A DNA stretch of 59,021 nt from an uncultured beta proteobacterium (GTDB lineage: Bacteria; Pseudomonadota; Gammaproteobacteria; Burkholderiales; Burkholderiaceae_B): assembly GCA_903932425.1 (NCBI GenBank), contig CAIZGG010000096.1:1-59021 (forward strand). The letters are read 5' to 3'. Below the pieces are notes generated by a model, which had not been told where the DNA came from, did no database searches, and worked only from the letters and a program-made list of their open reading frames with translations. Shown here in pieces: positions 2,486 through 43,033 of the stretch (positions within the stretch are counted from its first letter, which is position 1; the number at the start of each line of letters is the position of its first letter). A program made the position numbers and the translations under genes.

Positions 2486-3448
2486 TCACTCGGGCTTAAT
2501 GCCCGCACTTTGCAAAGCCTTTTGCCAAACCACGAGCTGATCTTTGACAATCGCATCAAGATCTTCGGGTGTGCCTGCTGCGCTTTCCATTGACTGGCGC
2601 TCGAGTTGCTCGCGCACCTCGGGCATCTTCAGTACTGCATTGAGTTCTTTATTAAGAAGATCAACAATCGGCCTTGGCATTTTCGCAGGGCCGACTAGCG
2701 CCATCCAGCTGATGTTTGTGAAATTTGGTAAGCCCGCTTCTGCCATCGTTGGGACCTCAGGGAATATGGGGCTACGCTTATCAAGCACGACACCTAACGG
2801 CCGTAATCTGTTTTCTTTAATGAAGCCCGTTGAGGTCGCCGGTGAGGTAAAGGCGAGCTGTATGCGATTAGCGAGTAAGTCAGCGGTTTGCTCGGGTTCG
2901 CCTTTATAAGATACCTGCACGATGTCGACTTTGCCTAAGGTTTTAAGCTGTGTTCCATAAATCAACGCCGCCGTGTGTCCAGACCCAAAGTTCAATTTGC
3001 CTGGGTTCGCGCGTGCATAGGCAAGCAGCTCGTTCAGGTTTTTGACTGGTAACTCTTGGTTGACCAACAAAAAATGTGTGAAGTTACCGATAAATCCGAT
3101 AGAGGTGAAATCGGTCAACACGTTGTAAGGCGGGTCTTTCATTAAAAAGGGCACACCCGCTAACGGACTATTGGTGCCCATCATCAGGGTATAGCCGTCG
3201 GGCGCAGCCCGTGCAATAAACTGACCTGCGATCGCGCCATTTGCGCCGGCCTTGTTTTCGACAACGACGTTTTGGCCTAAGCGTTGCGAGAGCTTTGGAG
3301 CGATCACGCGGGTCAGGGTGTCGGTCACCGAACCCGCCGGAAATGGAATGATCAGGCGTATGGGTTTTTCTGGATATTGCGCATACGCCGCAGCCGAGGC
3401 GAAGGCGAGGGTGCATGCTGCAACAAAAGTCGTGATCCGTTTATACAT
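2486..3448 (-). CDS. Bug-family (TctC-like) periplasmic binding protein 1
   Basis: A 320-residue extracytoplasmic binding protein of the tripartite tricarboxylate transporter (TTT) receptor family. These usually bind carboxylates and deliver them to a TctA/TctB permease or act in sensing. An N-terminal signal peptide ends near residue 23 (AYA-Q). It is followed by the family signature: YPEKPIRLIIPFPAGS, then VVENKAGANGAIAG and APDGYTLMMGTN. No tctA or tctB is nearby, so this is an orphan receptor, the usual state in Burkholderiales. It is transcribed divergently from the SDR gene at 3696 across about 250 bp. The ligand cannot be read from the sequence; the SDR neighbour could belong to the same catabolic route. 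Confidence 0.93.
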   Translation of the reverse strand: MYKRITTFVAACTLAFASAAAYAQYPEKPIRLIIPFPAGSVTDTLTRVIAPKLSQRLGQNVVVENKAGANGAIAGQFIARAAPDGYTLMMGTNSPLAGVPFLMKDPPYNVLTDFTSIGFIGNFTHFLLVNQELPVKNLNELLAYARANPGKLNFGSGHTAALIYGTQLKTLGKVDIVQVSYKGEPEQTADLLANRIQLAFTSPATSTGFIKENRLRPLGVVLDKRSPIFPEVPTMAEAGLPNFTNISWMALVGPAKMPRPIVDLLNKELNAVLKMPEVREQLERQSMESAAGTPEDLDAIVKDQLVVWQKALQSAGIKPE

Positions 3449-5810: not shown

Positions 5811-6815
5811 TTACTTATCGAGCGTGATGTTTCTGCTTCGAATAATCTCGCCTAAGTCTTTTTCACTTTTAATAAACTGCGCCTTAAATTGAGCGGGCGT
5901 GCTGGGGCTAGGGATATAGCCGCGCGAATTCAAGTCATTGGCAATGGTCGGGTTATCTAGCGCAATTTTTATCTCTGCCGCTAATTTCGCCACGAGGGGC
6001 GCAGGTGTGCCTTTGGGCAGAATCACGCCCTGGTAGCTGTACAAGTCGAAACCAGGAAAACCAGATTCTGCAATGGTCGGCAGGTCTGGTAGTTGCGTAA
6101 TCCGGGTTGCGGTCGAAACGGCAAGTGGCTTGAGTTTGCCCGCTTGAATTTGTGGCAAGGCAGAGCCAAGATCGGTAAAAAGCAGATCGATGAAACCACC
6201 TAGCAACGCATTAATCGCTAAAGGTGCGCCCGCGTAAGGAACATGTAACGGCGTCGCTTTGAGTCGGCCGGCCAACGCCTCCATGGTCAGGTGATTCATA
6301 CTGCCATTTCCCCAACTACCGTAACTCATTTTCTTTTCATTTTTTTGAATATACGCAACGAGCTCTTTCATCGTGCTGACAGGTAAATCGTTACGAGCCA
6401 ACAGAACCAAAGGTGTCTTCACCAATGAGCTTACAAATTCAAAATCTTGATTGGCGACGTAAGGCAACTCTTTGTATAACGAGGTGTTCGCCGCAAGTTG
6501 ATCCGCGGTTTGCATCGCAGAGTAGCCGTCTGCCGGTAATTTACTCAGCGCCTGAGTCGCGATAATGGTGTTGCCGCCGCCTCGGTTTTCGACAATAAAC
6601 GGTTGCTTGAGGTTTGTTGACATATTCTGAGTAACAATCCGCGCCACGATATCGGTCCCGCCACCTGGTCCGTACGGCACAAGCCATTTGATAGGGCGAT
6701 CTGGATAGTTCTGCGCCTGTGTAAGGCTTGGAGCGATCGATAGGCCAGCAACGATCGCCGCTAAGACTGTTATCCCGCGCCGCTTAATATTTAACTTGAA
6801 GCCTTTCTTCAACAT
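5811..6815 (-). CDS. Bug-family periplasmic binding protein 2
   Basis: 334 residues. A strongly basic N-terminus and signal peptide end near LTQAQ (about residue 34), then NYPDRPIKWLVPYGPGGGTD and VENRGGGNT. Of the nine Bug proteins this one has an unusually Gly-rich ligand loop where the others read ENKxGAxG. AGGGA lies 9 bases upstream of the ATG. It probably forms a small operon with the cupin gene. No TTT permease genes accompany it. Confidence 0.93.
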   Translation of the reverse strand: MLKKGFKLNIKRRGITVLAAIVAGLSIAPSLTQAQNYPDRPIKWLVPYGPGGGTDIVARIVTQNMSTNLKQPFIVENRGGGNTIIATQALSKLPADGYSAMQTADQLAANTSLYKELPYVANQDFEFVSSLVKTPLVLLARNDLPVSTMKELVAYIQKNEKKMSYGSWGNGSMNHLTMEALAGRLKATPLHVPYAGAPLAINALLGGFIDLLFTDLGSALPQIQAGKLKPLAVSTATRITQLPDLPTIAESGFPGFDLYSYQGVILPKGTPAPLVAKLAAEIKIALDNPTIANDLNSRGYIPSPSTPAQFKAQFIKSEKDLGEIIRSRNITLDK

Positions 6816-11093: not shown

Positions 11094-12059
11094 ATGAGTC
11101 GTCATATTTTTTCGCGGTGTTGCCTGGCGATCGTTTTTTTTCTTAGTGCGCCTGCCAGCGTTTTTGCGAATCCAGCGTGGCCTGCATCACCGATCCATAT
11201 GGTGGTCCCGTTTCCGCCTGGGGGCAGTAACGATGTCATCGCTAGGCGCTTAGCTGATGGGTTGAGCAAAGCCTTTGGTCAGACAGTCGTGGTTGAGAAC
11301 AAAGGCGGTGGAGCCGGCGCGATTGGTTCACAAGCGGTAGCAATATCGAAGCCTGACGGATATACATTCCTCTTCATTTCAAGCTCGCTCGCAACGTCGG
11401 CGGCTGTTCAACAAACACCTTATGATCCGCCTAAAGCATTCATGGGGGTGGCGCAAGTCGCACGCTCTCCCTTTGTCGTGCTCATTAGTAAAGAGTTTCC
11501 GGTCAAAGACATTAAAGAACTGATCGCTTACGCAAAGGCGAATCCACGCAAAATGAACTTTGGTAGTGCTGGTTTGGGTGACAGCACACAGATGGCGACC
11601 GAGCTCTTTAACGATATCTTTGATATCAAAATGACGGCAGTACCGTATAAAGGGATCTCACCTGCTCAGCTAGATTTGGTGGCGGGACGACTCGATATGA
11701 TTATCACAACGATTGCGTCGATTAAGGGTAACGCTGCCGATAGCTTGCCAAAACTTGCTTTCACCGGCGCACAGCGCGAGCCAGACTATCCAAATATTCC
11801 GACTGTCATCGAGGCGACAGGGACGCAATATGAGGTGGATGTTTGGTGGGGCTTGTTTGCACCGGCAGGTATTCCAGTACCAATCTTACAAAATATGAAT
11901 GCTGAGGTGAATAAGATCGTCACAGACGCTGCGTTTGCCGAATTTTTAAAAACCGTGGGTGCTTCTCCTGCTATTGGCACGCCAGAGTCTTTTCAGCAAC
12001 TGTTAGTCAACGACCTAGAACGCTGGCGTGCGATTGCGAAACGGGCCGGTGTGCAGTAA
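11094..12059 (+). CDS. Bug-family periplasmic binding protein 3
   Basis: 321 residues. The signal peptide ends near SVFA (about residue 25), followed by WPASPIHMVVPFPPGGSND and VVENKGGGAGAIG. It is the first gene of a plus-strand run that continues with the 79-residue protein, amidase and cysteine hydrolase. The presumed ligand is therefore an amide or the acid released from it. A 114-bp gap containing chained mini-ORFs separates it from the next gene. Confidence 0.93.
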   Translation: MSRHIFSRCCLAIVFFLSAPASVFANPAWPASPIHMVVPFPPGGSNDVIARRLADGLSKAFGQTVVVENKGGGAGAIGSQAVAISKPDGYTFLFISSSLATSAAVQQTPYDPPKAFMGVAQVARSPFVVLISKEFPVKDIKELIAYAKANPRKMNFGSAGLGDSTQMATELFNDIFDIKMTAVPYKGISPAQLDLVAGRLDMIITTIASIKGNAADSLPKLAFTGAQREPDYPNIPTVIEATGTQYEVDVWWGLFAPAGIPVPILQNMNAEVNKIVTDAAFAEFLKTVGASPAIGTPESFQQLLVNDLERWRAIAKRAGVQ

Positions 12060-15327: not shown

Positions 15328-16335
15328 ATGAAAAATTCAAATATAAAAAATTCGCTTATTCGTAAGGTATCTGCAGCGTTTCTCGCGACTATGTTTGCGG
15401 GCTGTCTATCTGCGTCAGCGTTAGCGCAGACGGCCCCTTGGCCGAGTCGCCCGATTAAGATGGTGATCCCGTTTGGCGCAGGCGGCGGCACCGACGTGAT
15501 TGGCCGTTTTTTGGCGCAAAAACTATCGGAAGGTCTGGGTCAGACTGTGGTGGTTGAAACTCGCCCCGGAGCAGGCGGCAGCCTGGGTAGCGCTGAGGTC
15601 GCGCGCGCACCGGCCGATGGTTACACCATATTGCTAGGTTCAAGCTCAACGCACGGCATCAATCCTGGGATGTATGCCAAGCTTCCTTACGATCCAATCG
15701 AAGATTTTGAACCGATCGGTTTGATCGCGACTAATTTGTTTGTGATGTCTGTGCCCAAAGACTCACCGGTAAAAACGGTCGCTGACTTGGTGAGGTTGTC
15801 GCAGGCGTCACCCGGCCAGTACGATTACGCATCTTCTGGGAATGGCACAACGAGTCACCTTGCAGCTGCGTTGTTTGTTTCGATGTCGGGTGCGAAGCTC
15901 ACACATATCCCCTATAAAAGTAACGTACCCGGCCTGACTGATTTGATGGCAGGTCGCGTAGCGATGATGTTCGATAATATTACGGCCATGCAACGGCAGA
16001 TTAGTGCCGGAACAATCCGCCCGTTGGCCACAACCGGGTTAAAACGGACGACGGTATTAAACGATGTCCCGACCTTAGATGAAGCGGGTGTCAAGGGCTA
16101 TGACCTGAGGGGGTGGTTTTGTTTGCTCGCGCCGGCGGGCACTCCTGCAGAGATCGTGAACAGGCTGAATCAAGAACTTGTTCGAGTCATCGCGATGCCC
16201 GAGGTGGCAGAAAAATTGGTTTCTTTGGGTGCAGATCCTGAAACGGGTACACCGCAAGAACTTAAAGCCCTGATCGCCTCTGAAATTGTTAAATACAAGA
16301 ATATTATCGATCTCGCGGGTGCCAAGGTAGAGTGA
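15328..16335 (+). CDS. Bug-family periplasmic binding protein 4
   Basis: 335 residues. A long basic signal peptide ends near SALAQ (about residue 34), then WPSRPIKMVIPFGAGGGTD and VVETRPGAGGSLG. It lies between the duplicated small genes and a DUF1345 membrane protein, with no obvious catabolic partner. The ligand is unknown. Confidence 0.93.
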   Translation: MKNSNIKNSLIRKVSAAFLATMFAGCLSASALAQTAPWPSRPIKMVIPFGAGGGTDVIGRFLAQKLSEGLGQTVVVETRPGAGGSLGSAEVARAPADGYTILLGSSSTHGINPGMYAKLPYDPIEDFEPIGLIATNLFVMSVPKDSPVKTVADLVRLSQASPGQYDYASSGNGTTSHLAAALFVSMSGAKLTHIPYKSNVPGLTDLMAGRVAMMFDNITAMQRQISAGTIRPLATTGLKRTTVLNDVPTLDEAGVKGYDLRGWFCLLAPAGTPAEIVNRLNQELVRVIAMPEVAEKLVSLGADPETGTPQELKALIASEIVKYKNIIDLAGAKVE

Positions 16336-28582: not shown

Positions 28583-29407
28583 TTACTTCAGAGCTTTACG
28601 CAATGCGCCGCCCAGCCCATCTACGACGATGACACAAGCAAGAATGGTTAGCAGAATCGCTGAGACCTGGTCATAATGAATGAGCCGCAGCGCCGCCATC
28701 AACTCAAAGCCAATTCCGCCGGCGCCTACGATCCCTAACACTGCAGAGGCACGAAAGTGGTACTCCCAACGATAAATCGTAATGTCGGCTAGTTGCGGTA
28801 ACACCTGCGGTAGCACGGCGTGAATAATCACCTGAAACCCATTTCCTCCGGCGGCACGTGCGGCTTCCAGAGGTTTGGGATCGACGTGTTCGATTGCTTC
28901 TGCGTAAAATTTGCCGACCATCCCGACTGAATGTAGCGCCAGCGCCAATACGCCAGGTAGGGCTCCAAAGCCAACCGCTGCGACAAACAGAATCCCTAAA
29001 ATGATTTCGGGTACCGAACGCAAGGCCGATAACAGTACACGCGTGATCCTAGCTAGCCATACGCTCGGAGTAGTATTGGGTGCGGCCAGCAACGCGAGGG
29101 GTAATGAAAGACAGACGGCTAGCGCCGTGCCGGCAATCGACATCGCCAGCGTGTCCACTAGCGGTTTTAGCCAATGTCGCCAGCGGCCGAAGTCTGGTGG
29201 CACCATTTCTGACGCTAGTTGTGCAATGGCTGGCCCGCCATCAATTAGTCGTGTGAGATCAAAGGCGCCGCAGATCCAAAGCGCGGCTAGGCACACGGCA
29301 AGCACGGCGAGCACAAGTCTTCGTTGGCGTCGTTGTGCGCCCTGCGCACTACTTAGAAGGGTCGCGTAGTGAGGCTTAAGTGACGGCATTGCTTCGCTTA
29401 AGGGCAT
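28583..29407 (-). CDS. ptxC: phosphite ABC transporter permease PtxC
   Basis: A 274-residue inner-membrane permease of the phosphonate family (PhnE-like). It has about six helices and the permease signature with SVPEIILGILFVAAVGFGALPG (read in parts) and YRWEYHFRASAVLGIVGAGG, the coupling loop that contacts the ATPase. Its ATG overlaps the ptxB stop as TAATG. It is encoded between ptxB and ptxD, the order seen in the known ptx operon. Confidence 0.93.
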   Translation of the reverse strand: MPLSEAMPSLKPHYATLLSSAQGAQRRQRRLVLAVLAVCLAALWICGAFDLTRLIDGGPAIAQLASEMVPPDFGRWRHWLKPLVDTLAMSIAGTALAVCLSLPLALLAAPNTTPSVWLARITRVLLSALRSVPEIILGILFVAAVGFGALPGVLALALHSVGMVGKFYAEAIEHVDPKPLEAARAAGGNGFQVIIHAVLPQVLPQLADITIYRWEYHFRASAVLGIVGAGGIGFELMAALRLIHYDQVSAILLTILACVIVVDGLGGALRKALK

Positions 29408-30276
29408 TACTTCATTTTTCCCAGATCAAGCTTCAGGATTTTTGCGGTTTCGCGTAAAACATCGTAAGCCTTGTCATCAGTCGCTACAAAACCTTCAACG
29501 CGAAACGATTTCAGCACTTCTTTATCTTGAACGTTTAAAAAAGCATCGCGAATAGCTTGCTTAAGCGCGGGCGTGAGATTGCCTTGCATCACAATTGGAT
29601 AGTTTGGGATGGGTTCTGAGAGAGCAAGCTGCACGATCTTGGTAGGGTCGATGACATTTTTGGTGACTAAAGTGTCGTAGATTGGCTTTGATAAAGCCCC
29701 TGCGGGGACTTGTCCCGCCTGTACTGCGCGTGCGACTGCATCATGGGTCCCCAGAAAGACGGGTTTGTAATCTTTGTCGCCGTCTAGCTGGGCAGTTTTG
29801 AGCAAATAGGCGCGCGGGGCAAGGTGGCTCGAGGTTGAGGCCTGGTCACCAAAGGCGAAGGGTTTGCCCTGGATGTCACTCAGCGTTTTGACCGCACTCG
29901 CCGAATTGGCAATTAAGATCGACTGATAGGTTGGAGCGCCGCGCTCAACACCCACAGCAAATGCCTCGATCTCTGGGGCGCGTGACTTGGCTAACACGTA
30001 AGAGAATGGTCCAAAGTATGCGACTTCAATACGACCAAATCGCATCGCTTCGATCATCGACGAATAGTCAGTTGTGACGATAATTTCAATTTTTTTGTTC
30101 AGCGTGGTCTCTAAATAAGTCTTTAGCGGCTGAGCATTTTGTATCAACGTGGCGGCGTTTTCATCTGGCAGCAACGCAACGCGCAGGGTTGAAGGATCGC
30201 GTCCCTGTGCTAAGGCCTGATTAGCCATGAAGCAAAAGAATACAACCCCGGCAGACATAAACGAACGACGACTCAT
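29407..30276 (-). CDS. ptxB: phosphite-binding periplasmic protein PtxB
   Basis: 289 residues: signal peptide (about 23 residues, ANQALA), then LRVALLPDENAATLI and the ligand-site segments TTDYSSMIEAM and YFGPFSYVL, with GDQASTSSHL in the second lobe. These are hallmarks of phosphite/phosphonate-binding proteins, where the Ser/Thr of DQASTSS binds the oxyanion. GAGG precedes the ATG. The PtxB assignment rests on the neighbouring ptxA, ptxC and ptxD and on this close resemblance. Confidence 0.93.
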   Translation of the reverse strand: MSRRSFMSAGVVFFCFMANQALAQGRDPSTLRVALLPDENAATLIQNAQPLKTYLETTLNKKIEIIVTTDYSSMIEAMRFGRIEVAYFGPFSYVLAKSRAPEIEAFAVGVERGAPTYQSILIANSASAVKTLSDIQGKPFAFGDQASTSSHLAPRAYLLKTAQLDGDKDYKPVFLGTHDAVARAVQAGQVPAGALSKPIYDTLVTKNVIDPTKIVQLALSEPIPNYPIVMQGNLTPALKQAIRDAFLNVQDKEVLKSFRVEGFVATDDKAYDVLRETAKILKLDLGKMK

Positions 30277-30278
30277 GG

Positions 30279-31136
30279 TTAGACCTCAACGAGTGATGAT
30301 TGCAGAAAAGACCCAGGCATTGGCAAAGCCTTGGCAGTTATTGCCGAGTTGCCTGGCTGGTGTTGATACAAATTTTTAATGTGTAGCTCTGTGAACTCGG
30401 ATGCTGAGCCATCAAACACAACGGAGCCCTGCTTGAGACCAATAATTCGATCGGCAAACTGTCGGGCGAAATCAACTTGGTGCAGGCTCACGACTGCGGT
30501 CAAGCCATCCGACTTACAAATGTCATGCAGCGATTGCAACAATCGCAGGGAGGTATTTGGATCAAGGCTCGCGATTGGTTCATCGGCTAGTAACAATTGT
30601 GGCTGTTGAATCAATGCTCTTGCCATCCCAACGCGTTGCTGTTGGCCTCCGGATAGCTGATCGGCACGCTCTAACGCCCGATCCAATAGGCCGACACGTT
30701 CGATCGCCGCGAGGGCCAGCTCTTTCTCAGCCTGTGTCCAGGGGCAAAACATCCGCCAGCCAGCGTGGTGGCCTAGTCTGCCAAGTAATACATTGCTCAG
30801 AACGCTTAGCCGGCCAATTAAATGATGCTGTTGAAAAATCATGCCGGTCTGACGGCGATGCTGTTTTAGGGTTGAGGGCTTGGCGATATTCCCCAGCCCT
30901 GCGGCAGTGACGCTGCCGCCGGTTGGCTTGACCAGACCGTTGAGTGCCCGCAAAAGTGTCGATTTTCCTGCGCCCGACGGACCGAGCAACACCACAAAAG
31001 ATCCCTGGGCTATGTTTAGGGTCGTGCTCTTGAGCGCCGGTAGATTGTTTTTGTAGGTGACCTCTAGAAGCTTTGTGCAAATGATTGAGTTAGCCTGCAC
31101 AGGATCGTGGTTAGAAAGCGATTTTTCTAGATTCAT
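30279..31136 (-). CDS. ptxA: phosphite ABC transporter ATPase PtxA
   Basis: 285 residues with a complete ABC ATPase core: Walker A GPSGAGKST, the signature LSGGQQQRVGMARAL, Walker B LLLADEPIASLDP, and the switch His in VVSLHQVD. It has a 20-residue N-terminal extension and a short C-terminal tail compared with PhnC. It is the first gene of the operon. An 87-base leader before it carries a PhoB box and a -10 element. Confidence 0.93.
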   Translation of the reverse strand: MNLEKSLSNHDPVQANSIICTKLLEVTYKNNLPALKSTTLNIAQGSFVVLLGPSGAGKSTLLRALNGLVKPTGGSVTAAGLGNIAKPSTLKQHRRQTGMIFQQHHLIGRLSVLSNVLLGRLGHHAGWRMFCPWTQAEKELALAAIERVGLLDRALERADQLSGGQQQRVGMARALIQQPQLLLADEPIASLDPNTSLRLLQSLHDICKSDGLTAVVSLHQVDFARQFADRIIGLKQGSVVFDGSASEFTELHIKNLYQHQPGNSAITAKALPMPGSFLQSSLVEV

Positions 31137-34525: not shown

Positions 34526-35464
34526 ATGGAACTCAGACAACTTCGCTATTTTTTAGCCATCGCTGAGCACGGCACGTTTTCAAAAGCGGCTAGTAAAGTG
34601 TTTGTGGCGCAGTCAGCGCTCAGCCATCAGTTGGCTCAGCTTGAAGACGAGCTTGGCGCGCGCCTCTTTGAGAGGTCTCGTCGAGGCGCAGAGCTGACTG
34701 AGGCGGGCGTAGTGTTTCATGCCTATGCGCTCTCGATTTTGCGACAAGTCGAAGACGCTGCCTCAAGCGTGTCTGGGCTAACCGATTCACCGGCAGGTAA
34801 AGTGGTGTTTGGGATACCGCATAGCGCCTCACAAGCACTTGCTTTGCCGTTATTAAACGCCGTTCGCCAAGAGCTACCTAAGGTGCAACTCGAATTGACC
34901 GAAGAGTTAACTGGCAACTTGACCCGCCAACTATTGGCAGGCTCGTTGCATATGGCGATTTTGTTTGATGACGGCGCCCTTGACGACTTTATTTCAGAGC
35001 CCTTGGTAGCTGAGAAGATGTCGCTGATCTATCGCGCAGACGCGGGTGATAAACAGACTAGGGCAAACATCTCGTTTCGTGAGGCCTTAGCCAAGCCGCT
35101 GATTCTGCCTGCTCAACCACATGGCGTTCGGCCACTGATTGAACAGCAGGCGGCTCAGGCAGGTTTGCTTGCGCCCAATGTGGTGGCTGAAATTAGTTCC
35201 ATCAGTATCTTGCGCACCTCGCTGCTTGCTGGACTAGGTTGTACGATCTTGCCCGTCATGCCCTTAAAGGCAGAGCTCGATAGCGGCGCCTTGATTGCTC
35301 GGTCCATTCGTGCCCCTGGTGTGCAAAGGGTGGTGGCACTCTGCCGCTCGCGACATATTCCGCTTTCAACCGCAGCCGCTTCGGTGGGGGCGTTGGCTGC
35401 CAAGGTGGTGCGTGCACTTTGCCAACAAGGTTTATGGGTGGATGGTCGTTATATTGGTCGGTAA
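34526..35464 (+). CDS. LysR-family transcriptional regulator
   Basis: 312 residues. The N-terminal winged helix-turn-helix reads RQLRYFLAIAEHGTFSKAAS and QSALSHQLAQLEDELGARLFER (residues 3-47), followed by a co-inducer domain. It is encoded between the ptx/dioxygenase group and the decayed phosphonate transporter, so it may control either. PtxE of P. stutzeri is also LysR-type, so PtxE is a candidate identity, but I cannot confirm it. Confidence 0.88.
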   Translation: MELRQLRYFLAIAEHGTFSKAASKVFVAQSALSHQLAQLEDELGARLFERSRRGAELTEAGVVFHAYALSILRQVEDAASSVSGLTDSPAGKVVFGIPHSASQALALPLLNAVRQELPKVQLELTEELTGNLTRQLLAGSLHMAILFDDGALDDFISEPLVAEKMSLIYRADAGDKQTRANISFREALAKPLILPAQPHGVRPLIEQQAAQAGLLAPNVVAEISSISILRTSLLAGLGCTILPVMPLKAELDSGALIARSIRAPGVQRVVALCRSRHIPLSTAAASVGALAAKVVRALCQQGLWVDGRYIGR

Positions 35465-35510: not shown

Positions 35511-36278
35511 CTAAGCCAGCAGGCGCCGAATTTTTGCGCTAAGCATATCGACTAACAAGACCAGTCCAATCATCACTAATAAGATCGAACTGGTTTCTGA
35601 CATCTTGAATAGGCTGAGGTAATACGACAGCATTTGACCAAGTCCGCCCGCTCCAACAATGCCCAACACGGTGGCCGCGCGGATATTGTTTTCCCAGCGG
35701 TAAAGCGTGTAGCTCACCAACTGCGGAGCGATTTGCGGAATTTGTACAAAAAAGAAAATCTTGCTGCGACTAATGCCGCGTACGCTGAGGGCAAACTCAT
35801 TTTCTTTTGGAGCGTTTTCAAGCGCTTCGGCAAACATGCGGCCTAAGACGCCCGTCGTATGCAGTGCGAGCGCCAAGGTGCCAGACATCGGCCCTAGGCC
35901 GGCCGAGATCAACAGTAACGCCGCCCACATCAGCTCTGGAACGCTACGCAGCGCACTCAGCATCCAGCGGGCGCTCGAGCGAAGCAGGCTAAAGCGGGCA
36001 GGCGAACGTTTGCTTGCCGGAATTGCTAGGGCGAGCCCAAGGATAAACGCGATGAGTGTGCCCAAAGCCGACATCGCGAGTGTTTCAAGTGCAGCGGGCA
36101 ATAGTTTTAACCAAAACGCACCAGACCAATTGGGCTGAGTCAGCTCACTAATGAATAGCCCCATCTTGCGCAAGCTGCCAGGGTTAAAAAAAGTAGAAAA
36201 TTGTAGGTTGAGGCTTGCGAAGCTAGCGATAATCAAGCCGCAACACGCAACGAAAAAAAATATTGCTTTCGGTCTCAT
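35511..36278 (-). CDS. phnE: phosphonate-type ABC permease PhnE2 (intact)
   Basis: 255 residues with six helices and the permease coupling loop YRWENNIRAATVLGIVGAGGLG near residue 195. The ATG overlaps the phnE1 stop as ATGA. It is the only intact gene of the four-gene cluster. With its partner permease, ATPase and binding protein damaged, it is probably non-functional as a transporter. Confidence 0.85.
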   Translation of the reverse strand: MRPKAIFFFVACCGLIIASFASLNLQFSTFFNPGSLRKMGLFISELTQPNWSGAFWLKLLPAALETLAMSALGTLIAFILGLALAIPASKRSPARFSLLRSSARWMLSALRSVPELMWAALLLISAGLGPMSGTLALALHTTGVLGRMFAEALENAPKENEFALSVRGISRSKIFFFVQIPQIAPQLVSYTLYRWENNIRAATVLGIVGAGGLGQMLSYYLSLFKMSETSSILLVMIGLVLLVDMLSAKIRRLLA

Positions 36279-37223
36279 GATAAAAACTTTCTTAACCAGG
36301 CGCTGACAAGATCAGAACACCAAACCAGAAGTAAAAACACAATCAGGATGGTTAACACCTCAGAGCCATTAAACATCTTTAATGAGGCATCCATCATCTG
36401 GCCCAGCCCGCCTGCGCCAACGAACCCAAGCACGGCCGACGAGCGAATAGCACACTCCCAGCGATAAATCGTGTAGCTCGTCAGTTCATCGGCGTTTTGG
36501 GGTAACAGGGCATAAAACAAAGTTTGCAGACGCCCCGCGCCGTTGCGCATCAAGGCCTGCGCGTTGCTTGAATCGCCACTTTCGAGGATTTCAGCGTAGA
36601 CCTTGCCCAGCATACCGGCATAGGTCAGTGCAATGGCCAGCACCCCTGTTGTTGGCCCGAGGCCTACAACGCGTACAAAAATTAAGGCCCAAATGAGTTC
36701 AGGCACGCTGCGTAAAATAATCAGAATAGCGCGAACAATTTCACGTACCGCCGAGGGCAAAAATTGCATGCGACCTGTGAGAGCGGATAGTGATAACACT
36801 CTGACGGCGAGAACCGCGAGCGGTACAGCCAGAACAATGGCGAGTGTGATGCCGACCGTTGCCATGGCAACTGTACGCCAGGTTTCATGCGCGACTTGAA
36901 TTAAAAAATCAGGCGAAAGATTAGGTGGAAAAAAAACTCGCCAAAAAATTGCTAGTTTGTTTGAGACTTTCTGAACCCCATAGCGTCCAGATTTTGAACT
37001 CGGTCCATTCGAGCGTAGGCCACAAAATGAGCAAGGCAACAATGGCACCTGTTAGACGGCGTGACCAAGCAGGATCGCGTAGCCGTTTAGCAGCAGCGGT
37101 GGGGGCATAAGGGGCCGGCGTAATCAAGGTAGTGAGCGTGTAGAGTGTCGGTCGCAGATCAGCGGCAGACCGGAGCAAAGGCAGGGCGCGTGATTGTGCT
37201 ACCCGCCGTTTGCTCGGCATCAA
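36275..37223 (-). pseudogene. phnE: phosphonate-type ABC permease PhnE1, frameshifted in a T8 run
   Basis: The N-terminal part (basic segment and first helix, to NFLASFF) reads in one frame to 36921. The remainder, from FFPPNLSPDFLIQV on, is in the next frame. The join lies in a T8 run on the minus strand (A8 on the plus strand, about 36929-36936); seven T would restore a single reading frame. The second part has the coupling loop YRWECAIRSSAVLGFVGAGGLG. The start is uncertain because the longest frame overlaps phnC. A sequencing error or programmed slippage remains possible, but the neighbouring genes are also damaged. Confidence 0.8.
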
Positions 37224-37776
37224 AGGCGTGATCGACTTCGGGTTGATGACTGTAGAGCTCGTCTAACAACGCGGGTGTCACTTGCGTCACGGGTAAGTCA
37301 AATTGAATGTGGCCTTGCGCCAGGCCAATGATGCGTGGAAAAAATTTCAAGGCCATTTCAACATGGTGTAGCGTCGCTATTAAAGTCGCCTGGCGGTCGT
37401 GAGCTGTCTGGCACAAAGCGTCCAAGGCTGATCGCCGCGCTGTGGGTCAAGCGCAGATAAAGGTTCATCTATCAGTAAAGGTTGAGCATTTGAGATCACG
37501 GCACGTGCAAGACCGACCCGCTGTCGTTCGCCTCCGGACAATCGATCAACGCGCTCAAAAAGCTTTTCTGCTAAATCGAAGCGAGCCAAAGCGTCTTGTA
37601 AGGCTTGCAGATTGGCGGGGTAAATCAGGTTGCGCACGCTTTGAAGCAAGCTGAACTGAGGGAGTTGGCCCGCGAGCACCGAGGTGACGACGCGTTGACG
37701 GGGCACGAGAGGGGCAATTGCTACGCAAGAGCGTGGGCGGGTGGCGTACTGAAACCCGTTTTAGGTGAATCTTCAT
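37159..37776 (-). pseudogene. phnC: phosphonate ABC transporter ATPase PhnC, internal deletion and frameshift
   Basis: The ATG at 37776 begins [17 protein letters not shown] as in PhnC, but the sequence then jumps to the [14 protein letters not shown] region, so about 70 residues with Walker A are missing. The remainder keeps the signature [14 protein letters not shown] and Walker [14 protein letters not shown] one-base loss near 37431 then shifts the frame, and the end ([22 protein letters not shown]) is read in another frame. It cannot make a working ATPase. Confidence 0.88.
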
Positions 37777-37832: not shown

Positions 37833-38069
37833 TTACTTTAACAAGCCAGCATTTGCGGCAGCAGCCTCGATATCTTTGTAGTTTTCAGTTTTAGTCGGAA
37901 CAAATTTCGTGGCACGTTGCAGCGCGAGAATCTCTTTTCCTTCTGGTGTGTCGGGGCTTAACGCTAAAAAGGCGTCTGTTAACAGCTTGCGCTTGGCTTC
38001 GGGCATCGCGCTATGCACAGTCCAGTTGTAATCAAAATAAGTGGGTGCGTACCGTGGAAAGGAAACCAA
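37833..38069 (-). pseudogene. phnD: C-terminal remnant of a phosphonate-binding protein (PhnD)
   Basis: About 78 residues matching the end of PhnD-type proteins, with FDYNWTVHSAM and the TKTENYKDIEAAAANAGLL ending. The first three quarters, including the signal peptide and ligand loop, are absent. The fragment begins about 110 bp after the senA stop. Only the far C-terminal lobe remains, so no transport function is possible. Confidence 0.85.
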
Positions 38070-38182: not shown

Positions 38183-39319
38183 CTAGAGTGCGCAGGTCCT
38201 GAAACCTGAGTAGATGTCGCGACGCTCAGGCGTAAAGAAGTTGCGATACTGAACGTGACGTAAAACATGGTGGGTGACGCGGGCGGCGCCGCGCAATACT
38301 TTGCGGGTTCCGAACCAGGGGGCAGAGTAGTCGGCGTAGGGGTGCACAACGAAACCGTCGAAGGGCTCAAAGGTATCTTGAGTCCATTCCCAGACATTGC
38401 CCCAGTTGAAGTCGCCGAGGCTTCGGGCAGCGCGATCCCATTCGGCTTCAGTAGGCAAACGGCATTGAGCCCAAGCGCAATACGCTTGCGCATCATCCCA
38501 CGAGAGATGAACAGCGGGTGCCTGCATGGGCATGGGCCCCCAGGCGCCAAAAGTTTGTACTTCAAAGCTTGAGCCAGCGCGTCGAACATAAAGCGGTAAG
38601 CGATACCCGGTGGCCTCAACAAACGACATGTACTGCTCCCAACAGACCGGCTCAAGGCTGATTTCAAACGCCTTTAGTGCGGCTGAGCGCGCAACCAGTT
38701 CATTATCAAAACAAAAGTGGTTCGGCGAAGAACCCAGCGACCAACGTTGCGCGGGCAGGTGCGCGGTGGCTGTACAGGGCTCAGATACGCTGGCGTTGGC
38801 ATTGCCGTTTAAGTGTACCCACACCGTTTCAAAGGGTATTGCAAGCGCCTGTGCCATATAGGCACTTGCTTCAAGGTGCATGGCTTCGTGCTGCAGGGCG
38901 AGCCAGTAAAAATAAAGTGCAGGACTGCCGTCGGGTTCCTCTTGCAACAGTTCAAGAGTTTGCTCGAGGGTTTGTGCAGCGTACGCCAGGCAAACGTCTT
39001 GTGTTAGAAGTGCTTGATCCCAGCGGGAGACATGTTGTACTTTAGCGCTGTCGAACCATTGGTCTGCGTGAGCAAGTAGCGAATCGTTTTTACCCTGAGC
39101 GATTTGCAGTGCCACACCTTGAGAGCGTTGTTGATTGCGAGCAATCCAGTGCTCTTGAAACCATGCAATGTGACCAAGCTCCCAAAGCGGTGGATTGAAT
39201 TCTGGTTTGTAAGGGATCTGTAGCTTGTTGGCGCGGGCGTACGCTTGAAACGAGCTCAGCGTATGGGTTCGCAGTTCGTGCAGTGCTGCAGTCAGTTCTT
39301 TGGCGTTAGCCTGACGCAT
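38183..39319 (-). CDS. senA: selenoneine synthase SenA (EgtB-like)
   Basis: A 378-residue EgtB/OvoA-like non-heme iron enzyme. An N-terminal DinB-like bundle has His50 and the HEAMH motif (His144, His148), giving the three-His iron site. A C-terminal FGE/SUMF1-type domain follows, with WDDAQAYCAWAQCRLPTEAEWDRAARS near residues 276-302 and GFRTC at the end. EgtB joins a sulfur donor to hercynine; SenA uses a selenosugar. Assignment to SenA rather than EgtB rests on the neighbours senB and senC and on the absence of egtA/C/D. It lies divergent from senB with only 18 bp between the start codons. Confidence 0.87.
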   Translation of the reverse strand: MRQANAKELTAALHELRTHTLSSFQAYARANKLQIPYKPEFNPPLWELGHIAWFQEHWIARNQQRSQGVALQIAQGKNDSLLAHADQWFDSAKVQHVSRWDQALLTQDVCLAYAAQTLEQTLELLQEEPDGSPALYFYWLALQHEAMHLEASAYMAQALAIPFETVWVHLNGNANASVSEPCTATAHLPAQRWSLGSSPNHFCFDNELVARSAALKAFEISLEPVCWEQYMSFVEATGYRLPLYVRRAGSSFEVQTFGAWGPMPMQAPAVHLSWDDAQAYCAWAQCRLPTEAEWDRAARSLGDFNWGNVWEWTQDTFEPFDGFVVHPYADYSAPWFGTRKVLRGAARVTHHVLRHVQYRNFFTPERRDIYSGFRTCAL

Positions 39320-39337
39320 CCTTTTTACTTACCTTAA

Positions 39338-40327
39338 ATGTTTATAGCCGCTCAACGTCGCAAGCCCAAGATCGTGATTGTAAGTCCGGCGCTTGCCCGT
39401 GCCAATAACGGCAATTGGCAAACGGCCCGGCGCTATGCTCGTATGCTGTCAAACATTTGTTCGGTGCGAATCCTACAAGAGTGGGATGGCAACGAGACTG
39501 ATGACGTCTTGATTGCCCTGCATGCGCGCCGTAGTTACGCGTCGATTGCCGCATGGCATGCTGCGCGCGGCTCGAGGGGGTTGGTCGTGGTTCTAACCGG
39601 CACCGACCTGTATCGCGACATTCAGCAAGACTCGCAGGCCCAGCAGTCGTTGCAATGGGCCGCCCGGCTTGTGGTGCTGCAAGCCGCCGGTTTAGCCGAA
39701 TTGCCGATTGCTGTGCGTGATAAGGCTCAAGTGTTGTTTCAATCGACCACCACCCGCCAGACACTCGCCAAAGCTAAACATCGTATACGGGCTGTGATGG
39801 TGGGGCATTTGCGTGCTGAGAAGTCTCCTCAGACTTTTTTCGAAGCTGCGGCCTTATTAGCTGATCACACTGACCTTGAACTACGCCACATTGGTGGCGA
39901 GCAAGACCCCGCCTTAGCGCAACAAGCCCATCACACCGCAGCTCGCTATGCAAATTATCAGTTTTTAGGTGCACAAAGCCATGAACAAGCGCGGCGATAT
40001 ATCCAACGCTCGCACGTTCTGGTTCACTCAAGTGTGATGGAGGGCGGCGCTCACGTCATCATGGAGGCGATCTGCAGCGGCGTACCGGTACTGGCCTCGC
40101 GGATCGCTGGCAACATTGGAATGCTCGGTGAGGACTACGCCGGATTTTTTACAGTCGGTGACGCGCACGACTTGGCGAGCTTGCTATTGAAATTTAGAAA
40201 TGAACCAGTATTCGTGGGGCGATTGCTAGAGCAGTGCGCCGCGCGTGCACCTATATTTTCGCCTGCTCGTGAACGTAGCGGATTGATTACAATCGTTCAA
40301 GATCTTATCCTCAAGGAACCCTCATGA
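39338..40327 (+). CDS. senB: selenosugar synthase SenB (GT4-like)
   Basis: 329 residues of a glycosyltransferase-4-type Rossmann fold. It begins KIVIVSPALARANNGNWQTARRYARML. The C-terminal half has VGHLRAEKSPQTFFEAA and SSVMEGGAHVIMEAICSGVPVLAS, the nucleotide-sugar binding part. SenB joins selenophosphate to UDP-GlcNAc to give a selenosugar. The start at 39338 lacks a clear ribosome site. The senC ATG overlaps its stop, so the two are coupled. Confidence 0.88.
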   Translation: MFIAAQRRKPKIVIVSPALARANNGNWQTARRYARMLSNICSVRILQEWDGNETDDVLIALHARRSYASIAAWHAARGSRGLVVVLTGTDLYRDIQQDSQAQQSLQWAARLVVLQAAGLAELPIAVRDKAQVLFQSTTTRQTLAKAKHRIRAVMVGHLRAEKSPQTFFEAAALLADHTDLELRHIGGEQDPALAQQAHHTAARYANYQFLGAQSHEQARRYIQRSHVLVHSSVMEGGAHVIMEAICSGVPVLASRIAGNIGMLGEDYAGFFTVGDAHDLASLLLKFRNEPVFVGRLLEQCAARAPIFSPARERSGLITIVQDLILKEPS

Positions 40328-41373
40328 CCACCAACGAACCTCGTCTGACCTCGCTCTCGCACGGCGGTGGCTGTGGCTGCAAAATCGCTCCGGCGGTGTT
40401 GTCTGAGATTTTAAAAGGCACCTTGCAAATGCCGATCCCGAAAGAGTTGATGGTGGGGATCGCGACGGCAGATGATGCAGCGGTATACAAGCTCAATGAT
40501 CAACAAGCGCTGATTGCGACGACTGATTTTTTTATGCCTATCGTTGACGATCCTTATGATTTTGGTCGCATCGCAGCGACCAATGCAATCAGCGACGTCT
40601 ATGCCATGGGCGGCAAACCGATTTTGGCATTGGCTCTCGTAGGTATGCCGATCAATGTCTTATCGACCGACACGATCGGAAAAATTCTGGCTGGTGGCGC
40701 ATCGGTGTGCAACACGGCGGGCATCCCGATCGCGGGTGGCCACACCATTGATTCAGTCGAGCCTATTTATGGTTTGGTCGTGCTAGGGTTGATTCACCCT
40801 GATCGCGTCAAGCGTAATGATGGTGCACGCAAGGGCGATGTGATGGTATTGGGTAAGCCGATTGGTGTGGGGATTTTATCGGCGGCACTAAAAAAAGAGG
40901 CGCTCGATGCAAGTGGTTACGAGTCAATGCTTGCGAACGCAACCAAGCTCAACACCCCAGGCCCTGAGCTTGCGGAACTGTCGGGTGTCCATGCCTTGAC
41001 CGATGTCACGGGCTTCGGGTTGGCCGGACATGCTCTAGAGCTGGCGCGCGGTGCCAATCTGACGGCGCATATCAAGTGGGCAGACGTACCCTTGTTACCT
41101 AACGTGTCTGATTTAATTCGGGCGGGGATGGTGACTGGTGCCTCAGGTCGGAATTGGGATGGTTATGGCAACGAAATTAAGCTTGCGGCAGGCCTGCCTG
41201 CTGATTGTCAAACGCTGTTGTCTGATCCCCAAACAAGTGGTGGGTTATTGGTGTGCTGTTCACCCGAAACTGTGCCTGAGGTCCTGGCCGTGTTTAACCG
41301 CCACGGGTTTAAAGATGCCGCTGTGATTGGCAACATCGGCGAGGCGCAAGCGACTCGTCTGTTGATCGAGTGA
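40324..41373 (+). CDS. senC: selenophosphate synthetase SenC (SelD-like)
   Basis: A 349-residue SelD homologue. It has the catalytic GGGCGCK with Cys17, Cys19 and Lys20, numbered as in E. coli SelD, and the DFFMPIVDDPYDFGRIAATN and GGHTIDSVEPIYGL segments. It makes selenophosphate from selenide and ATP. Cys is used instead of selenocysteine. AAGGA precedes the ATG, which overlaps the senB stop as ATGA. No selA or selB is in the window, so this copy probably serves selenoneine rather than selenocysteine. Confidence 0.9.
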   Translation: MTTNEPRLTSLSHGGGCGCKIAPAVLSEILKGTLQMPIPKELMVGIATADDAAVYKLNDQQALIATTDFFMPIVDDPYDFGRIAATNAISDVYAMGGKPILALALVGMPINVLSTDTIGKILAGGASVCNTAGIPIAGGHTIDSVEPIYGLVVLGLIHPDRVKRNDGARKGDVMVLGKPIGVGILSAALKKEALDASGYESMLANATKLNTPGPELAELSGVHALTDVTGFGLAGHALELARGANLTAHIKWADVPLLPNVSDLIRAGMVTGASGRNWDGYGNEIKLAAGLPADCQTLLSDPQTSGGLLVCCSPETVPEVLAVFNRHGFKDAAVIGNIGEAQATRLLIE

Positions 41374-41401: not shown

Positions 41402-43033
41402 ATGCGAGTGATGCCCGTCGAGTCACCTGTGGCGCGGCGGGTTCTGCACAAGCGTTGCAGCTGGCTTGAGCAACTGACTCTTTTTGTTGTGTTGGCGCTG
41501 GCGCTGGCACAGGTTTCGGTTGCGCAGACTTTGGTGGTTGGCTCAAAGCGCTTTACCGAGTCATACATCCTGGGCGAGATTATTAGCCAGTCTGTCACAT
41601 CAGCCGGTCATGACCGCGTGGTGTTGAAGTCTGGCTTGGGTAACACCGGCATTTTGCTATCTGCCTTAGTAAGCGGTGAAATAGATCTTTACCCTGAATA
41701 CACCGGCACCATTACGCGCGAGATTTTAAAAACCGAGCAGGTTTTGTCGCTGGCAGAGATCAACCAACGTCTATTGCCAACTGGGCTTCAGGCGGGCGTC
41801 TTGCTTGGCTTTGATAATTCTTATGTGCTGGCAGCGCGTCGTGAACTCGCCGAAAAATTACAGCTTCGTAGCATCGCGGATTTGGCGAAGCACCCCGAGC
41901 TTAGGTTGGGTTTTTCGCATGAGTTTATTGGTCGAAGCGATGGCTGGAAAGGCTTGGCAAACAGGTATCAACTCGCTCAATTTTCACCCAAAGGGCTAGA
42001 TCATGGCCTTGCCTACGAGGCAATCAAGGCTAGACAAATAGATGTGATGGATGCCTATGGCACTGACGCAAAGTTGTTGCGTGATGGGTTGGTGGTGCTG
42101 CGCGATGAGCTAACGTTTTTTCCAACTTATGAGGCGCTCTTGTTGTATCGCTCAGAGGTGCCAACTAAATTTTCGGCTTCGTGGCAAGTGCTCTTGGGAC
42201 TGCAGTATAAGATCCCACAACAGACGATGCGTGAGCTCAATGCGCGCTCAGAAATCGACGGCCAGCCTTTTGCTGCGGTCGCTCGTGAGTTTTTGCAAGC
42301 GCAATCCTCAAGTGCAAAAAACTCAACGCTGATAAACGAGGGTGCCGCACCCCCCGAACGTGCTCTGGCTCAGCAGTCGTTTATTCGCCTGCTGTTCGGC
42401 GCCGATTTCTGGCGCTTAGGTACTCAACATCTGTTTTTAGTGTTGGTTTCATTGCTGTTGGCGATTGCTGTGGGGATCCCGTTGGGTGTATTGAGTTTTT
42501 ATCGACCCAGGGCAGGGCAGGTCGTCTTGTCGATCACCAGCGTGATTCAGACGATCCCGTCACTTGCGTTGCTGGCTTTTTTAATTTCATTGTTCGGTTT
42601 AATCGGTACCGTCCCTGCTATCGTGGCCTTGTTTTTATATGCACTGCTGCCCATCATACAAAGCACGCATGCGGGGTTGAGCGAAATCTCACCGTCTATG
42701 CGCCAAGCCGCTCAAGCACTCGGGTTGAGCGCGCGTGATCAGCTTTTTCTGATCGAGCTACCGTTGGCACGCACGATGATTTTGAGTGGCATTCAGGTTT
42801 CGGCAGTATTGAGCGTTGGTACCGCAACAATCGCCGCCTTTGTAGGCGCAGGCGGTTTTGGCGAACGCATCGCTCAAGGCTTGGCCTTGAACAACACGCA
42901 GATGCTCTTGGCTGGTGCAATTCCGTCTGCGGGGTTGGCGCTATTGATCCAATACGGATTTTTTGTCGCTGAGCGCAAACGTGCTCAACGCAGCCAAGTC
43001 GCTTCGGTGCTGCCCAATGGGCCAGCAGGTTGA
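41402..43033 (+). CDS. OpuC-type ABC binding-protein/permease fusion (possible selenoneine or ergothioneine transporter)
   Basis: 543 residues joining an N-terminal OpuC/ProX-like binding domain (about 40-300; VGSKRFTESYILGEI, GNTGILLSALVSGEIDLYPEYTGT) to a C-terminal OpuCB-like permease (about 340-530; SITSVIQTIPSLALLAFL, AAFVGAGGFGERI). A signal or anchor helix at 23-42 places the binding domain outside. In Gram-positive bacteria and Helicobacter the ergothioneine importer EgtU is a fusion of the same domains in the reverse order. The gene lies 28 bp after senC on the same strand. No ATPase is encoded next to it. The substrate is inferred from context only. Confidence 0.8.
   Translation: MRVMPVESPVARRVLHKRCSWLEQLTLFVVLALALAQVSVAQTLVVGSKRFTESYILGEIISQSVTSAGHDRVVLKSGLGNTGILLSALVSGEIDLYPEYTGTITREILKTEQVLSLAEINQRLLPTGLQAGVLLGFDNSYVLAARRELAEKLQLRSIADLAKHPELRLGFSHEFIGRSDGWKGLANRYQLAQFSPKGLDHGLAYEAIKARQIDVMDAYGTDAKLLRDGLVVLRDELTFFPTYEALLLYRSEVPTKFSASWQVLLGLQYKIPQQTMRELNARSEIDGQPFAAVAREFLQAQSSSAKNSTLINEGAAPPERALAQQSFIRLLFGADFWRLGTQHLFLVLVSLLLAIAVGIPLGVLSFYRPRAGQVVLSITSVIQTIPSLALLAFLISLFGLIGTVPAIVALFLYALLPIIQSTHAGLSEISPSMRQAAQALGLSARDQLFLIELPLARTMILSGIQVSAVLSVGTATIAAFVGAGGFGERIAQGLALNNTQMLLAGAIPSAGLALLIQYGFFVAERKRAQRSQVASVLPNGPAG

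Follow-up and report, generated by a model that had tools for sequence, protein, structure and literature searches.

A selenoneine gene cluster with an EgtU-like neighbour and a decaying selenate-type transporter operon in an uncultured beta proteobacterium

The stretch of DNA analysed here, 59,021 nucleotides of contig CAIZGG010000096.1 from an uncultured beta proteobacterium of the Burkholderiales (assembly GCA_903932425.1; hereafter the window), carries three adjoining genes, senA, senB and senC, for the synthesis of selenoneine. Judged by its sequence, this is a real selenoneine gene cluster of the kind already described, and its pathway is a known one; the extended locus is a variant, to which are added a conserved EgtU-like gene and a decaying selenate-type transporter operon. 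The core consists of:

38183-39319, minus strand: senA, selenoneine synthase, EgtB-like (profile NF041186 and solved SenA relatives)
39320-39337: intergenic gap of 18 bp between the start codons of senA and senB (from the sequence)
39338-40327, plus strand: senB, selenosugar synthase (profile TIGR04348 and solved SenB relatives)
40324-41373, plus strand: senC, selenophosphate synthetase, SelD (profile TIGR00476)

All three reading frames are open, those of senB and senC overlapping by 4 bp (40324-40327). SenB scores 426.5 bits against the curated model TIGR04348 (cut-off 300) and SenC 422.7 bits against the SelD model TIGR00476 (cut-off 125); SenA passes its curated model, NF041186, marginally, at 420.4 bits for a cut-off of 420. 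Among solved structures, SenA scores 329 bits with SenA, 156 and 147 with OvsA and 78 with EgtB, its closest relatives being two SenA entries, 8ryz (E 3e-97) and 8k5i (E 4e-97); SenB scores 333-347 bits with four SenB structures (8k5u, 8fbx, 8jjq, 8jjn), the next glycosyltransferase reaching 27 bits; and the closest solved relative of SenC is a selenide, water dikinase, 3u0o (322 bits). The cluster had been proposed in an earlier note made from the letters alone, which also named iron-binding histidines 50, 144 and 148 in SenA and Cys17, Cys19 and Lys20 in SenC. The coordinates, strands and lengths it gave prove exact, the curated models and solved relatives agree with its gene names, and the named residues stand at those positions, aligned with solved homologues; the search against characterised proteins that it had called for, now run, returns sen proteins as the best matches of SenA and SenB, not EgtB or OvoA. 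We take Cys17 and Lys20 to be important residues of a SelD-type SenC. In SenB, the HMMER alignment, numbered as in the accessible part of PMC10891094, places N20, T23, H58, R61, T83, T85, R155, K158, E231 and E239 as kept; the residues that mark a SenB in that part of the paper (EGGAHV, K158, N20, T23 and E231, with those of the selenophosphate pocket) are all present.

The window is one contig (C96) out of 508 in a metagenome-assembled genome with 83.9% completeness and 6.1% contamination. In this incomplete genome no full SelD other than senC was found, the second SelD match reaching just 57 bits. EgtD (334.3 bits, cut-off 290.9) is encoded on another contig (G000:C277), where an EgtB gene directly adjoins egtD; contig C277 is unlikely to be foreign, because the egtB-egtD pair recurs in two other members of the genus, G004 and G019, with 79-84% identity. 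Import of hercynine, considered for genomes with sen genes and no egtD, was rejected for the window, whose genome has egtD; it may still apply to G018, which has SenB and no EgtD match at 93% completeness. In the order sample (399 genomes; EgtU-like matches at E 1e-40 or less, EgtD at E 1e-60 or less), 17 of the 117 genomes with SenB are without an EgtD match, for example G133, G162, G187 and G297, and some of the 17 are ~100% complete. G021 has two EgtD genes, on contigs C11 and C22, one within its sen cluster (~45% identical to the EgtD of the window genome) and one beside an EgtB.

Layout was compared in 60 loci, made up of the window, 57 genomes with SenB over the cut-off out of 200 relatives, and two below the cut-off; named loci found with SenB include Limnohabitans sp. 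MMS-10A-178, a Ramlibacter and two Ferrovum assemblies. Divergence of senA from senB is the rule, because 41 of the 60 loci have it, and it is not special to the window. Two further loci have SenA placed otherwise, one of which (L092) is probably divergent as well, with an over-long open reading frame (ORF), and 17 are without SenA above 100 bits. senC comes directly after senB in 35 of the 60. In L067, L068, L070-L072 and L097 (genera g34, g20 and g13) a 2.3-2.5 kb ORF, part of it SelD-like, comes after senB; the two that were scanned, of L067 and L070, are an oxidoreductase joined to SelD, with TIGR03169 and TIGR00476 over cut-off and TIGR04369 below.

Gap sizes were taken from starts aligned within the genus (23 loci, window included), longest-ORF gaps outside it being left unused. 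The senA start codon is kept in all 23 loci and the senB ATG in 20, L061-L063 starting elsewhere; in the 20 that share both ATGs the gap is 18-21 bp. The divergent 18-bp gap reported in the earlier note is therefore exact in the sequence and typical of the genus, and the alternative offered there, that one start codon was wrong, finds no support, since neither start looks wrong. The note had also described senB as lacking a clear ribosome site, and indeed no Shine-Dalgarno-like stretch occurs in the window's 18 bp; weak ones are seen in the gaps of two of the 22 relatives in the genus, L042 (AGGG) and L054 (GAG). Its further suggestion, that promoters or leaders lie inside the opposite genes, is supported for senA, where a conserved element was found within senB, and not shown for senB, where none was found.

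39377-39405, minus strand: predicted senA promoter, TTGGCA-17-TACAAT, within senB codons 14-23

This element, on the senA strand, is the only promoter-like match in 39100-39560 (10 of 12 positions; shuffled sequences give a mean of 0.3). TTGG(NN)-17-TACAAT stands at the same place in 18 of the 23 genus loci, with weaker forms in the other five (L048-L052). Outside the genus (19 loci), Limnohabitans has the same 10/12, seven loci have 6-9/12 and eleven are without a usable anchor. The senB codons beneath the element (ATT GTA AGT CCG GCG) vary less than codon usage would lead one to expect, with an excess of 0.43 for a mean of 0.17, and form the third-ranked stretch of senB by this measure, the top two lying at its 3' end near the senC start; no comparable peak of over-conservation appears in the first 40 codons of senA. 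A senA promoter within senB codons is supported by this pattern as a prediction; because the 23 loci are related, its conservation counts as moderate evidence. On the plus strand, searched around the gap (39100-39560), no senB promoter was found. A leaderless senB with its promoter at the senA start was tried and rejected: hexamers picked by eye are not conserved in the 23-locus alignment, and the plus strand yielded no promoter. A terminator-like hairpin with a T run, directed rightward, is present at 39303-39317 (plus strand), ending inside the senA start just before senB; it is no commoner than in shuffles (one found, mean 0.7).

Two neighbours of the core lie beyond the earlier note's account, the EgtU-like gene and the broken transporter operon. 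The first of these follows senC directly:

41402-43033, plus strand: EgtU-like fused substrate-binding domain and permease (Pfam OpuAC and BPD_transp_1)

The OpuAC domain (residues 43-299) precedes BPD_transp_1 (358-516). H. pylori EgtU is the best phmmer match of the protein, and also the top Foldseek match of an AlphaFold2 model of its binding domain (mean pLDDT 95), with acetylcholine-sensor, Lmo1422, EgtUC and ProX structures closely behind. Equivalents of EgtU residues K242, T296, N339, Y341, E375, R379, Y419 and Y443 are kept, and in an alignment of 48 rows (42 distinct genomes, six of them appearing twice) the aromatic cage and carboxylate-binding residues are kept in every row (N339 in 47, once Asp), with F293 as Tyr. 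ProX is a binder of glycine betaine and proline betaine, and the archaeal protein has most of the same cage residues as EgtU. A Glu at the E375 position is also found in betaine-binding ProX, and so E375 was given up as an indicator of ergothioneine binding.

In the genus the gene is found in full after senC in 17 of the 22 standard loci of other genomes (L042-L063); of the other five, three hold a part that runs to the contig end (G007, G010, G013), the contig of G020 ends early, and G022 lacks the gene. With G020 counted as a carrier on a 158-residue part, and G022's partial match (32% identity, 76 bits) not counted, there are 26 carriers among 32 genus genomes: 25 of the 26 that are sen+ (SenB over cut-off) and one of the six that are not (Fisher p 0.0002). 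The one is G014, where the gene, without SenB over cut-off, lies beside a TauE/SafE-type permease gene (L192). In G003 an ATPase gene, the EgtU-like gene and senC stand in a row. G008 and G028 (L193 3406-12305; L194 2819-11959) have ATPase, EgtU-like, senA, senC, phnD, phnC, phnE2, phnE1 and egtD all on the same strand, and senB, on the opposite strand, converges on them.

Across the order sample 84 genomes carry the EgtU-like family (a few with partial or only 35-44% identical copies), 117 SenB and 182 EgtD. Of the 84 carriers, 57 hold SenB and 78 hold EgtD, against 104 of the 315 others for the latter. At the level of genera the tie to EgtD is 41 of 42 with the EgtU-like gene against 53 of 117 without it; among genomes without SenB, 22 of 27 carriers have EgtD, against 60 of 255 others. 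For a comparison family that is itself linked to egtD, PhnE2, EgtD is present in 68 of 89 carriers (a 106-residue match in G459 excluded). An ABC ATPase gene abuts the start of the EgtU-like gene in 11 of the 20 loci (L207-L226) that come from other genera and families. Five of these ATPases have 584-603 residues; scans of two of them (L214 and L208) show exporter-type permease-ATPases, to which the remaining three are homologous. The other six stand alone; of these, L212 was scanned in NCBIfam and comes closest to the betaine ATPase ProV, below cut-off.

Structure and sequence leave the cargo open, because EgtU and ProX tie and the cage is kept but Gly244 is Phe; the genomic tie favours a histidine betaine as predicted cargo. 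We tentatively propose, as quite possible, that the protein belongs to a Burkholderiales family of histidine-betaine importers (for selenoneine, ergothioneine or hercynine) with the domains of EgtU reversed, and that it is the fourth sen gene of the genus, by which a producer reclaims its own selenium antioxidant. Several observations weigh against this proposal. The family profile gives archaeal ProX 200.9 bits and EgtU 199.3 and 195.8. The equivalent of EgtU Gly244 is Phe in 48/48 rows, and the accessible part of PMC9732360 reports that Gly244Phe cuts ergothioneine binding by EgtU ~100-fold, while also destabilising the domain. No ATPase gene adjoins the EgtU-like gene in the window, and the best homologue in the window genome of the sen-linked ATPase of G008 is 42% identical. 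Where both genes are placed, the EgtU-like gene lies within 15 kb of senB in one genome of 57, the window itself, and, among the egtD matches listed, within 50 kb of egtD in none of 70. Finally, the 399 genomes are interrelated, and the one family set beside the co-occurrence counts, PhnE2, is not neutral, being itself linked to egtD.

The strongest alternative is an ordinary osmoprotectant importer, for glycine betaine or choline, whose tie to sen and egtD would come from shared ancestry and lifestyle; we regard it as possible, if somewhat doubtful. It fits the profile scores, level with those of betaine-binding ProX, the GSKxF motif with its Phe at the Gly244 position, the presence of OsmF among the best NCBIfam matches (though at 98 bits for a cut-off of 400), and the distances outside the genus, where none of 56 genomes has the gene within 15 kb of senB and, among the matches listed, none of the 70 has it within 50 kb of egtD. 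It accords poorly with a distribution of 25/26 sen+ against 1/6 sen- genomes inside one genus, with the persistence of the gene next to sen genes in the rearranged clusters of G008, G028 and G003, with a distance to senB of 16-34 kb in six family-f46 genomes, and with the strong genus-level tie to EgtD. If the importer takes up selenoneine, as one form of histidine-betaine import would have it, producers also recapture the compound, which would point to its traffic between cells; the effect on EgtU binding of selenium in place of sulphur is stated to be untested in the accessible part of PMC9732360. In the literature searched, the founding sen-cluster paper aside, we found no report of an EgtU-like gene or importer in sen clusters.

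The second neighbour lies on the other side of the core, to the left of senA:

37836-38045, minus strand: phnD-like remnant, putative selenate-binding protein (tblastn; last 70 of a relative's 310 residues)
37162-37718, minus strand: phnC-like ATPase remnant (tblastn; first 91 residues missing, the rest in two frames)
36278-37088, minus strand: phnE2-like permease, shifting frame near the beginning of the gene (tblastn matches in two frames)
35511-36278, minus strand: phnE1-like permease, open (TIGR01097, 237.4 bits, cut-off 216.7)
34526-35464, plus strand: LysR-type regulator, open, which flanks the sen locus in several relatives

The phnD remnant is 93% identical to the intact relative in G006, over residues 241-310 only (tblastn), and the phnE2-like gene scores 211.9 bits with the PhnE model, just under the cut-off of 216.7. 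With 123.5 bits, the regulator falls short of the selenium LysR family NF040786 (cut-off 250). The PhnD-like proteins beside the sen genes of G006 and G008 reach 384 and 368 bits (cut-off 250) with TIGR04553, which NCBIfam names a "putative selenate" binding protein of an ABC transporter; the window copy contains no full-length TIGR04553 binding protein over 250 bits. Association of such genes with sen loci extends well beyond the genus: in the 50 order-sample genomes where a PhnE2 relative (50% identity or more) and SenB are both placed, the two are within 15 kb of each other in 14, window included, for ~0.4 expected by chance, and the 14 span six families (f1, f7, f9, f22, f31, f49).

Within the genus, G006 has a full phn set with egtD, G009 a full operon beside senA without egtD, and in G004, G007, G010 and G018 the LysR gene abuts senA. 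This looks like stepwise loss of the operon across the genus. The break observed in this assembly could in principle be a fault of assembly instead, the genome being a fragmented metagenome assembly with 6% contamination; we consider this unlikely, in view of two large losses and two frame changes spread over three adjacent genes, next to open phnE1, LysR and sen genes, and of the graded series in relatives, from the full operon (G006) to none (G004, G007, G010, G018). With decay as the preferred reading, genomes that keep sen as the operon decays form a series that tests naturally whether the operon is necessary. That a selenate-type operon recurs at sen loci is relevant to bacterial selenium acquisition: according to the accessible part of PMC9312934 (2022), a high-affinity transport system for selenium had yet to be identified, and there an ABC transporter-related ATPase is predicted to accompany an unknown SelD trait. 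No report of a selenate transporter at sen loci was found in the literature searched. The window has a second, open phosphonate-type operon of phnC, phnD and phnE (28583-31136, minus strand), whose PhnD is below both cut-offs (TIGR04553, 166.6 of 250; PhnD, 203.6 of 261), and, by eye, many TctC-type tripartite receptor genes along its length (1-59021), such as 2486-3448, 5811-6815, 11094-12059 and 15328-16335.

That the cluster makes an ergothioneine-like sulphur compound, SenA being a divergent EgtB, is very improbable: SenA is in the EgtB superfamily and barely passes its own model (the margin of 0.4 bits, in a model passed by 8 of the 32 genus genomes, weighs against our naming of it), and the genome also has an egtB-egtD pair, but SenA structures score ~4x EgtB, SenB is close to solved selenosugar synthases, the genome's only full SelD found sits in the sen cluster, and a separate EgtB is present.

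The account that we hold, taken whole, to be highly probable is of selenoneine made by the described route, with a senA promoter in senB, a rightward senB-senC operon, one half of an importer and a decayed selenate-type operon. From homology we infer the enzyme activities: SenC would provide selenophosphate, SenB would combine it with a UDP-sugar into a selenosugar, and SenA would join the selenosugar oxidatively to hercynine, selenoneine being released. The hercynine would come from the EgtD encoded beside EgtB on the other contig of the same assembly. Transcription of senA would run leftward from a sigma-70-type promoter in the first senB codons, with a leader of perhaps ~50 bases, and senB and senC, probably with the EgtU-like gene, would form a rightward operon. 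The importer half would most likely salvage a histidine betaine (selenoneine, ergothioneine or hercynine) by means of an ATPase encoded elsewhere. Since the flanking selenate-type operon is decayed here, selenium must enter another way.

Compared with known systems, the core matches the sen cluster of Variovorax paradoxus (PMC9814287; accessible part of PMC10702425), where SenA, SenB and SenC homologues are likewise adjacent, the key residues of SenB are the same and SenC is of SelD type; an EgtU-like gene directly after senC is recorded for the window side only. Relative to the SenB of PMC10891094, the window protein has Glu for V157, Gln for L209 and Ala for T214; according to the accessible part of that paper, V157 mutants retain some activity, and L209A and T214A raise activity ~1.5-fold. 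The TIGR04553 operon, with a binding protein over cut-off in G006 and G008, is represented in the window by fragments only of the binding protein and ATPase. Limnohabitans sp. MMS-10A-178 (NZ_NERY01000002, L275) combines phnD-phnC-phnE-phnE-egtD with divergent senA/senB, senC and the same promoter element; directly after its senC there is no EgtU-like gene of this family, and partial matches of 32-41% lie further on, on the opposite strand. EgtU itself differs from the window protein in having Phe at position 293 and Gly at 244, where the latter has Tyr and Phe and no adjacent ATPase gene. The fusion of binding domain and permease is shared with EgtU of S. pneumoniae and H. pylori; the S. pneumoniae protein has its binding domain at the C-terminal end (residues 232-503 in the accessible part of PMC9732360), whereas in the window protein it comes first and the permease second.

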